Notes under the pieces: model-generated | The model's database searches: none | The model's input: only the letters and a program-made list of their open reading frames with translations | Told to the model about the DNA's origin: nothing | Shown: in pieces, positions 24,625 to 26,267 of the stretch | Layout: every line of letters begins with the position of its first letter | Position numbering within the stretch: position 1 is the first letter of the stretch | DNA from: Gemmatimonadota bacterium | Lineage (GTDB): Bacteria; Gemmatimonadota; Gemmatimonadetes; Longimicrobiales; Gaopeijiaceae | DNA length: 45,570 bases | Reading direction: 5' to 3' | Assembly: GCA_009692205.1 (NCBI GenBank) | Contig: SHZR01000022.1 | Location: 1 to 45,570 of the forward strand | Made by a program: the position numbers and the translations under genes

Positions 24625-24637
24625 CTCACACGTGACG

Positions 24638-24673
24638 AGACCCGGCAGGGCATGACGCCCTACCGGGTCTTTC
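24638..24673 (+). terminator. Intrinsic terminator after tRNA-Gly
   Basis: AGACCCGG-c-AGGGC pairs with GCCCT-a-CCGGGTCT around a 5-base loop, followed by TTTC. It ends the tRNA transcript 14 bases after the gene. It lies just beyond the stop of the convergent barrel gene and could serve both directions. Confidence 0.8.
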
Positions 24674-24694
24674 GTTACCCGGTGCTGAGTCGGA

Positions 24695-25230
24695 TCAGGG
24701 ATTGAGCACGAAACTGATTCCGACGCTCGCGACGACGATGTCCGTACCATCGATGTCGCCGAACCCCGTGAGGTACATCCCCTCGACGTAGCCCGTCAGG
24801 CCGCCCATCGGGATGTTGACTCCGGCGCCGCCCGAGGCTGCCAGGCCTGAGGCCGAGGCATCCGGAAACGTGTCCGACATGAACGAGTGCTTGACGTACC
24901 CTGGACCGCCGAAGACGTAGCCCGACGTCGATGCAGGGTCGCCGATCGTGTACTGCACGAACGCGGCCGCGCCGAGTAGGTCGGTCCTGTCGCCGTCGAT
25001 GTCGTGGCCGTTGCTGCCGTAGAGCCCACCGACGCCAACCGCCAGTCCGGGGCTACCGACCGGGAACGCGACGCCGCCCTGCGCCATCCAACCCACGCTG
25101 GCGTAGTCGGCGTAGTCGCTCACCGGAATGCCGGCGCCCGCGGACAGGAACATCGTCGCTTGGGCCGACGCGCTCTGCGCAGACAGCCCCCCCACGCGAC
25201 CGCGAGTGCACTGCTGAAGAACCGCTTCAT
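24695..25230 (-). CDS. Small outer-membrane beta-barrel, frameshifted at a G7 tract in the signal peptide
   Basis: An ATG at 25230 begins a textbook signal peptide (MKRFFSSALAVA), but after a run of seven G (25187-25193 on the minus strand) the frame is lost. The body continues in another frame from GLSAQSASAQATMFLSAGAG, through NGHDIDGDRTDLLGAAAFVQ and GYVFGGPGYVKHSF, to the last strand VVASVGISFVLNP. One G more (or two fewer) in the run would join both parts into about 178 residues. The barrel is paralogous to 26406-26972. Either a phase-variable switch in the off state, a decaying gene, or a homopolymer error. A second G7 run lies four bases before the ATG. Confidence 0.75.
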
Positions 25231-25377
25231 GGACCCCCCCTGTTGAGTGAAACCCCGACCACCCCCACACGACCTTACGATCAACCGACGGACTACGTTT
25301 GGGTAGGTGCTGTGAGCCCCGTCGGTGCACGATTCGCAGGTCCCCGCCCGCGGGCCATCGAAGGACCCGCGCCAGTG

Positions 25378-25405
25378 TTGTAACCGGAACCAGACGAGTT
25401 ACGTT
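25378..25405 (+). promoter_or_regulatory. Possible promoter of tRNA-Cys
   Basis: TTGTAA (25378-25383) and TACGTT (25400-25405) are 16 bases apart, about 24 bases before the tRNA. The -10 match is only fair. The rest of the 25231-25428 gap shows no gene or clear structure. Confidence 0.3.
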
Positions 25406-25428
25406 TTCGGGCCCTTTCGAGGGCTATC

Positions 25429-25499
25429 GGCGCCGTGGCCAAGTGGTAAGGCAGAGGACTGCAAATCCTTTATCCCCGGTTCGAATCCGGGCGGCGCCT
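25429..25499 (+). tRNA. tRNA-Cys (GCA)
   Basis: Acceptor GGCGCCG pairs with CGGCGCC; D region CCAAGTGGTAAGGC; anticodon stem AGGA/TCCT with loop CTGCAAA (anticodon GCA); T arm CCCGG-TTCGAAT-CCGGG. Discriminator T25499 (U73, typical for tRNA-Cys); no encoded CCA. Its 3' part recurs downstream (see the repeat at 25485-25709). Confidence 0.97.
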
Positions 25500-25709
25500 C
25501 TGAGATACTCGTAGTCAGCCGGCTCTTCGCCGCCCGGATGAGAACCATGGTTCGAGCCGAGGCGCAGAGACGGTGGTCCGCGCAAGCGGACCCGTCACCG
25601 TGACCGCCGAGACGAGCGAGGATCGCGAAGCGACCGCAGTTCCATCCGGGCGGCGCCTCTAGCGAGTCGGAGACCTCATAGCTGTTTCTCCGCCCGGATG
25701 AGAACCATG
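25485..25709 (+). repeat. Two hairpin units derived from the tRNA-Cys 3' end
   Basis: The 17-base segment ATCCGGGCGGCGCCTCT occurs at 25485-25501 (inside and just past the tRNA) and again at 25644-25660. Each copy is followed, after about 28 unrelated bases, by CCGCCCGGATGAGAACCATG (25530-25549 and 25690-25709). Since ATCCGGGCGG and CCGCCCGGAT are complementary, each unit can fold into a long-stem hairpin, with the first one using the tRNA's own 3' half. Between them, GGTCCGC-GCAA-GCGGACC (25575-25592) forms a hairpin with a GNRA loop. Could be an att-site scar, a tRNA-derived repeat family, or a processing structure. The stretch 25500-25847 holds no gene. Confidence 0.7.
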
Positions 25710-25747
25710 TCACGCTCCGCACCGATTGATGGCGCCTACCAAGCGAA

Positions 25748-25777
25748 AGCGGGACGACGCTTTCGCGTCGTCCCGCT
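25748..25777 (-). terminator. Terminator of the small secreted-protein gene
   Basis: A perfect 13-bp stem AGCGGGACGACGC / GCGTCGTCCCGCT with a 4-base loop, followed on the minus strand by TTCGCTT. It lies about 70 bases beyond the stop of the minus-strand gene ending at 25848. The T-run is weak. Confidence 0.5.
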
Positions 25778-25847
25778 CGCTTCGATCTGCCATTCGCGTG
25801 CAGGAGAAGTCGCTATGCCGCTCTCCTTCGCTACGCTGCCCGCTTGG

Positions 25848-26267
25848 TCAGCTGGCCGCCCGCGTCGCCCTCCCGGTCGCCAGGAACGACCCGCCCATCG
25901 CCGCCAGGTCCACGTTCAGGCCGTCGCCGTCGGGCGTCAGCACCAGCGCGATGTCGATCGACTGACCCTGCACATCCACGAAGAAGCTCATATGCATCGC
26001 TTCGCCCGCGCGGGTGATGTCGCTGACGTCCTGTAGGCCGAGGTCGGCCGTGCCGAAGCTCGCTGCGACCTTGCCGCCCTGATCGACGATCTTGATCTCC
26101 ATGCTCATGGCGCCCATGTCCGTGGTCAACGGAAGCGTCCAGTTCCCGAGGAACGCCTGGGCCTGCGACGTATCGAGCTGGGACTGCGCGGAGGCGGGGG
26201 ACGCGACCGCGGCGACCAGGGCTGCGCACAGCGCCATGCTCCGCGCTTGAATGCTCGCAATTCTCAT
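25848..26267 (-). CDS. Small secreted protein, function unknown
   Basis: 139 residues from the ATG at 26267, which has GGAGG upstream. A signal peptide ending ASPASAQ (about residue 27) is followed by a compact domain, FLGNWTLPLTT...MSMEIKIVDQGGKVAASF, with several predicted strands and a C-terminal LNVDLAAMGGSFLATG. The GxW near the mature N-terminus and the small beta-rich form recall lipocalin-like domains, but I cannot place it in a family. Divergent from the barrel gene at 26406. Confidence 0.7.
   Translation of the reverse strand: MRIASIQARSMALCAALVAAVASPASAQSQLDTSQAQAFLGNWTLPLTTDMGAMSMEIKIVDQGGKVAASFGTADLGLQDVSDITRAGEAMHMSFFVDVQGQSIDIALVLTPDGDGLNVDLAAMGGSFLATGRATRAAS

Follow-up and report, generated by a model that had tools for sequence, protein, structure and literature searches.

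RtT RNA, described as a stable RNA of ~170 nt freed in tRNA processing, has until now been regarded as an oddity of the tyrT operon in E. coli. RtT repeats number four in E. coli K-12: one separates tyrT from tyrV, the other three follow tyrV at a spacing of 178, and the tRNA-Tyr end is found in all four. A passage of PMC4986893 that cites Bosl and Kersten 1991 describes RtT as an RNA set free from the primary transcripts of tRNAs, with a proposed influence on the response to amino-acid starvation. Northern blots have also revealed RtT RNAs in Actinobacillus pleuropneumoniae, next to genes for tRNA-Asn and tRNA-Lys (PMC4986893). The RtT structure contains a covariation-supported helix that frames a tandem GA (PMC8250186; PMC7657543), as does arm A of the element described below.

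Here we analyse an array of tRNA-derived repeats located behind the tRNA-Cys gene in a 45,570-nucleotide stretch of a Gemmatimonadota genome (contig SHZR01000022.1 of assembly GCA_009692205.1, our contig C30; hereafter the window). We describe its anatomy, the family to which it belongs, the covariation within this family, the tRNA specificity of the direct (R) and inverted (I) arms, and the kinship with the RtT repeats of E. coli. The array belongs to a real, structure-conserved and RtT-like type of element, which extends the RtT/tyrT kind of repeat to another phylum and is general to tRNA genes.

Anatomy of the array behind tRNA-Cys

The array is composed of the following features.

25429-25500, plus strand: intact tRNA-Cys (GCA) gene (ARAGORN; Rfam RF00005, 69.5 bits)
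25485-25501, plus strand: R0, the tRNA 3′ end from A59 onward, copied downstream (direct repeat D2)
25502-25527, plus strand: V1, a spacer unlike V2 (sequence; repeat analysis)
25528-25546, plus strand: I1, the inverted T-arm and acceptor 3′ strand of the tRNA (CGCCGCCCGGATGAGAACC), whose partner is R1 (inverted repeats I1 and I3; I tracks R across tRNA types)
25549-25555, plus strand: GGTTCGA, the T-arm 5′ half to A58 and left border of E (border conserved in 29 copies)
25556-25643, plus strand: E, a structured module of 88 bases inside a T-loop copy, between A58 and A59 (covariance model R1, 82 bits)
25556-25613, plus strand: arm A of E, with base GCC/GAC, tandem G.A (25559-25560 with 25609-25610) and a stem (25561-25564 with 25605-25608) (alignments, pair counts)
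25575-25592, plus strand: GCAA-capped hairpin GGTCCGC-GCAA-GCGGACC within arm A, variable among copies (sequence, fold, alignment)
25614-25642, plus strand: arm C of E, with stem GAGC/GTTC, internal loop GA/GCA, hairpin GG(A)TCGC-GAA-GCGACC and a bulged A (alignments, pair counts)
25644-25660, plus strand: R1, the second copy of the tRNA 3′ end (direct repeat D2)
25661-25689, plus strand: V2, the second spacer (sequence, repeat analysis)
25690-25709, plus strand: I2 (25690-25706) with the shared GAGAACCATG, where the array stops without a second E (direct repeat D1)

The order 3′ of tRNA-Cys is R, V, I, E, R, V, I, i.e., a partial tandem of 1.4 units R-V-I-E. The original prediction, made from the window alone, named a tRNA 3′ end copied 159 bases downstream, inverted complements, a GNRA-capped hairpin and a degenerate T-arm, all of which are confirmed in the sequence. 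Indeed, repeat analysis places ATCCGGGCGGCGCCTCT at 25485-25501 and 25644-25660 with 100% identity (spacing 159), and TTC[G/T]CCGCCCGGATGAGAACCATG at 25526-25549 and 25686-25709 (spacing 160). The inverted arm (25478-25496 with 25528-25546) extends over 19 nt with 89% complementarity, so that GAGAACC, the inverted T-arm, is included too. GGTTCGAGCC begins at 25549, and the junction of E in the T-loop copy reads GGTTCGA^ATCC; because GGTTCGA is followed by E and then by R1, E lies between A58 and A59 of the second T-loop copy. The two spacers differ while their ends agree, which identifies a partial tandem array and counters the concern, raised with the prediction, that the second copy is an assembly artefact.

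When 25429-25710 is folded, which had been proposed as a check, none of 200 dinucleotide shuffles reaches the stability of the native sequence (z -3.2). I is complementary to R0 as well as to R1, and the inverted arm is equally able to pair with the downstream R. The I-R helix comprises 12 bp and corresponds in length and sequence to the T-stem plus the acceptor stem. Within each full unit, I-R pairing closes a junction, inside which lie both arms of E and a hairpin resembling a T-arm.

No terminator match was found in the window between tRNA-Cys and the unit, and no promoter-like match in 25230-25850; the frames surrounding the unit match nothing in Pfam. Directly past the array, at 25748-25777, lies a perfect 13-bp hairpin (AGCGGGACGACGC-TTTC-GCGTCGTCCCGCT) without a T-run, which is possibly the true end of the tRNA-Cys transcript. 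On the upstream side, the gap between tRNA-Gly and tRNA-Cys (24626-25428) measures 803 bp here, 877 bp in one relative (G003) and ~20-160 bp in the remaining relatives in which both genes were located. It holds a 211-aa frame on the minus strand (24695-25330), and no copied tRNA-Gly end was found in 24626-25428.

A structure-conserved family of modules

A search of 59 relatives at the DNA level gave partial matches to 25528-25660, mostly adjoining tRNA genes or tRNA fragments. A pattern of two conserved blocks, run on 84,980 species genomes, matched 32 stretches, 30 of them in Gemmatimonadota. The alignment of 29 E copies served as the basis of covariance model R1, which detects E in 67 of the 121 family genomes, with up to 18 copies per genome. 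Of 298 genomes drawn evenly from across the phylum, 34 were positive, 32 of them from this same family. The original prediction had proposed a search for the unit elsewhere: the exact unit has no other occurrence in the assembly, and the structured core recurs at tRNA-Leu and tRNA-Ser loci of the same genome and in relatives, which share its stems.

Unconstrained RNAalifold on the 29 copies recovers the structure drawn by eye, with 14 pairs, 9 of them changed on both sides. Covariation on the stated structure reaches 0.319 in these copies, vs 0.105 when shuffled and at most 0.07 when slid. Among the 129 distinct copies found with model R1, 95.6% of cells are paired, 302 double changes are distributed over all 15 pairs, and covariation rises to 0.408 (0.099 shuffled, at most 0.03 slid). 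The structure thus supported by strong covariation consists of two arms, each with a G.A motif, and GNA-type loops. G14 A15 and G64 A65, the tandem GA within a helix, are invariant in the 29 copies, and the I-R helix is also altered on both sides across copies. The suggestion of a structured RNA or mobile-type repeat is borne out to this extent, the core being a structure-conserved family behind many tRNA genes. G.U pairs account for 1.6% in E vs 3.7% in the tRNA stems at the same loci (p 4e-5), and are hardly commoner than A.C (27 vs 16); degraded copies may contribute to this low excess.

E was not found in plasmid and phage records. In viral contigs, three patterns gave 0, 2 and 3 matches, which were taken as chance since none was recognised by model R1. 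Recent spread among tRNA types within a genome is not seen either, identity being 0.65 within vs 0.63 between genomes; within a genome, copies at one and the same tRNA resemble each other, and the other copies are old. Where orthologous empty and filled tRNA-Cys sites were compared, the flanks were too diverged for dating the insertion.

Other arrangements are found at tRNA-Cys in relatives. Three loci (L017, L025 and L182) carry minimal units, with an inverted and a direct tRNA end capped by short GCGAAGC-type repeats and without a full E. In another (L163, 880-1660), a tRNA-Cys fragment starting at the anticodon arm is followed by three near-identical units of ~233 bp, each with a terminator-like hairpin.

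Genomic location of the copies

In 65 of 124 copies, R agrees without a mismatch, for 10 nt or more, with the 3′ end of a tRNA lying on the same strand of the same stretch. Eleven tRNA kinds are represented, namely Pro (CGG, GGG, TGG), Arg-CCG, Ser (GGA, GCT, CGA), Cys, Leu (TAA, CAA) and Gly-CCC; Ser-TGA is a further host beyond those counted. Further copies are located at tRNA fragments that start in the anticodon arm, or where tmRNA ends (3′). In 63 of 102 copies, the local R finds its complement in I or in the 5′ strand of the T-stem; this share is 20% once tails of different tRNA types are interchanged, a drop indicating that the sequence of the closing stem is remade for each tRNA. Direct-type copies lack I. 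At tRNA-Pro(GGG), a mirrored form is found, in which E is placed in the anticodon arm of an extra 5′-half copy (CCTGA^ATGGGG).

Where tRNA genes form an operon, the unit occupies a gap between two of them, and several units end 18-35 nt upstream of the next tRNA. A terminator-like hairpin separates tRNA and unit in 24 of the 61 copies located directly behind a tRNA; these copies are mostly behind single tRNA genes (Arg-CCG, Pro-GGG). The genome of the window has three E loci: the tRNA-Cys array, two tandem modules at tRNA-Leu(CAA) (contig C7) and one short unit at tRNA-Ser(TGA) (contig C51).

Kinship with RtT RNA

At the Rfam gathering score, only two tRNAs are reported in the window. At a low threshold, the RtT model (RF00391) aligns end to end with 25517-25661 at 17.5 bits vs a cut-off of 45, and the conserved boxes are in register (GGAUGAGAACC, GGUUCGAG.CGAG, CGCGAAGCG and AUCC). 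The short unit at tRNA-Ser(TGA) in the same genome is matched both by model R1 (28 bits) and by the Rfam RtT model (21.2 bits). The gathering score of 45 bits is reached in none of the 121 family genomes.

Because 17.5 bits are meaningless alone, the test was reversed and our own models were run on E. coli. Without filters, model R1 ranks the four RtT repeats at the top of the 2-kb tyrT locus (14.1, 10.7, 9.0 and 8.7 bits). A second model, R2, was built from 11 full Gemmatimonadota units including I and R. Applied to 40 kb of E. coli and with E-values allowed up to 10, it returns four matches, all of them RtT repeats, the best at 23.4 bits and an E-value of 0.0003, which is rough owing to the short calibration. 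The reverse test and the shared anatomy together identify an RtT-like element in another phylum, a connection that the original prediction had not made; since the Rfam gathering score is not reached, the element is termed RtT-like and not a member of RF00391.

Recombinase genes near the modules

In two relatives (G010 and G105), a full integron integrase gene (TIGR02249) lies directly 3′ of tRNA-Ser(TGA)-E (L206, 1299-2648; L223, 907-1959), and in L223 attC-like ends (GTTAGAC..GTCTAAC) follow past the integrase. At L205 (3516-5364), a tRNA-Pro fragment with E is followed by an integron integrase that lacks the N-terminal third, then by a HigB/HigA-like toxin-antitoxin pair. The genome of the window has only a partial integron integrase match, with a stop. 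Two further sequences of this genome resemble, by eye, the C-terminus of tyrosine integrases. One is a frame on contig C7 (L133, 1079-1279; VMKELGHRSIGLIESTYGHL) ending ~100 bp upstream of the tRNA-Leu(CAA) with the two tandem modules, and the other lies on the minus strand directly past the tRNA-Ser(TGA) unit (L135, 340-700). G010 also carries trios of consecutive tyrosine recombinase genes on contigs C15, C73 and C84, apparently unrelated to E. The window contig has no match to PF00589 or to a tyrosine recombinase, so that the search for an integrase using tRNA-Cys, proposed with the prediction, was negative there. With few integrases near E in six genomes as well, a tyrosine integrase was rejected as a constant partner of E.

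Proposed mechanism and alternative explanations

We propose that the unit is an RtT-like tRNA-linked repeat from which tRNA maturation probably frees one small folded RNA per unit. The unit would be co-transcribed with its tRNA where no terminator intervenes, as at tRNA-Cys, or inside tRNA operons. Each copy of R would then offer a tRNA-like 3′ end to processing, so that maturation would yield one RNA per unit; since the I-R helix copies the 12-bp stack of T-stem plus acceptor, processing at each R is plausible. At the DNA level, recombination between the repeated tRNA ends may lengthen or shorten the array, and an island that enters the tRNA would shift the array downstream. Co-transcription cannot maintain all copies, given the terminator-like hairpin before 24 of 61 and the many copies at tRNA fragments.

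These hairpins, the scarcity of G.U pairs and the almost equal frequency of A.C make a DNA-level role the main rival. Strand-specific RNA usually shows more G.U than the low share found here, and strand bias is not clear. The unit would then act as a small integrating or recombining DNA element whose folded single strand, with I-R as a stem that copies the tRNA end and E in the loop, recombines at the tRNA T-loop, an exchange that keeps the tRNA intact and places E distally; the tandem 160-bp units would be empty elements and the gene-bearing E-to-E segments filled ones. Consistently, the same border, GA^AT, is used in T-loops and, mirrored, in the tRNA-Pro anticodon arm. GNA loops such as those of the unit are typical of stable DNA mini-hairpins. 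Genes lie between consecutive E modules over 0.8-1.7 kb in L200, L181 and L069 and over 7.7 kb in L202; these segments include ones of ~1.2 kb with a lipoprotein-like frame (tRNA-Gly), 0.8 kb (tRNA-Leu), 1.7 kb (tRNA-Pro) and 7.7 kb behind tmRNA, and a further one of 3.7 kb has a permease-like frame (L159). Besides the three integron integrases adjoining E, one of them truncated, E is present in 17 of 19 genomes with an integron integrase vs 50 of 102 others (p 0.0009, ancestry not corrected). However, recombinases are missing from the window contig and few near E in six genomes, array ends have no single fixed border, and the similar identities within and between genomes speak against recent spread. 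In addition, many gene-bearing segments end at a fragment starting in the anticodon arm, so that ordinary tRNA islands explain most of them, and L223 at least has ordinary attC-like ends. As such ends lie near at least one integron, E is not claimed as a substrate of the integron integrase. Altogether, we consider this DNA element possible, yet unlikely, and prefer an RNA freed by tRNA processing to a DNA hairpin. It appears improbable that the units serve a tRNA-anchored cassette system as its sites, in which a folded single strand with a stem copied from the local tRNA end recombines with the tRNA gene and stacks empty and gene-bearing cassettes; if this were true, the E. coli tyrT repeats would be the fossil of such a system.

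A Y1 transposase of the IS200/IS605 or RAYT type, moving the unit as a non-autonomous hairpin element, would fit the two bulged hairpins and the lack of target duplication. Its gene (PF01797) is found in only 4 of 121 genomes and is absent from the genome of the window, so that it was rejected as the general mover, and we give this origin practically no credence. A functionless leftover of past tRNA-Cys integration, i.e., an att-site duplicate, is suggested by the copied tRNA 3′ end, the usual mark of tRNA-targeted islands, and by the E-bearing tRNA fragments at island ends in relatives. Such a duplicate explains neither I, nor E, nor the covariation seen at 15 pairs across the 129 distinct copies. 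This refutes it as a family-wide explanation and vindicates the doubt voiced in the original prediction about a plain att origin of the paired inverted arms. We regard it as very unlikely for the array, and it could hold for single decayed copies, e.g., L009. Finally, the unit might be a switch acting on the tRNA: in the read-through transcript, I would pair either with the tRNA 3′ end, causing misfolding, or with R, and E would decide between the two. Such a switch agrees with the complementarity of I to both R0 and R1 and with the lack of a terminator match ahead of I in the window. It is hard to reconcile with the terminator-like hairpins that precede the unit elsewhere and with the direct-type copies devoid of I, and it seems most improbable. 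Capture of the tRNA T arm and acceptor by a read-through transcript is accordingly not favoured in general.

The existence of a structure-conserved, multi-tRNA family in Gemmatimonadota shows that RtT is not tied to tyrosine: each tRNA has its own version of the outer stem, and the inner module is retained throughout. The family provides a comparative data set of well over 100 copies and leads to the prediction of processing products at each copy of the tRNA end. Many copies behind many tRNA genes allow an RNA function to be tested cleanly against a DNA function and make the role of the element easier to probe.

Comparison with known systems

Integron attC sites and E are both hairpins with bulged bases in which structure is kept over sequence, and IntI genes adjoin E in a few relatives. 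However, the attC core boxes RYYYAAC/GTTRRRY are absent from the unit (25485-25710), which has GTTCGAG instead. No integron integrase (TIGR02249) stands beside the array here; the gene adjoins E only in G010, G105 and, truncated, L205, and attC-like ends are separate from E in L223 and L224. Like the array, tRNA-targeted islands combine a duplicated tRNA 3′ end with an intact tRNA, and islands adjoin many copies of E. Ordinary att sites lack the inverted arm and the E module, and the window contig has no integrase next to a tRNA. REP/BIME sequences are, like the unit, short intergenic repeats with hairpins, and an enterobacterial BIME-type element cluster has been reported to resemble rtT (PMC2965389). 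In contrast to REP/BIME, the unit is nearly always linked to tRNA or tmRNA in our set and has no RAYT/Y1 partner.

RtT is the closest known system. The unit differs from it in occurring behind more than 10 tRNA kinds and tmRNA, with a closing stem that tracks the local tRNA, in its larger arm A, in the absence of an encoded CCA and in an Rfam score under the cut-off. Both form tandem units behind a tRNA, each with a tRNA 3′ end, and in both an inverted copy pairs with this 3′ end to form the outer helix, as judged from the Rfam alignment and from folds. They also share a GAA(C/G)C/GGTTC hairpin, a tandem-G.A arm and a terminal arm with GNA loops, and the boxes GGATGAGAA.C and GGTTCGA..CGAG are in register. 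Some of the agreement, in GGTTCGA and ATCC, is expected, since both elements are made from T-arms; this does not hold for the arms or for the alteration, common to both, by which the inverted T-arm has become GGATGAGAA.
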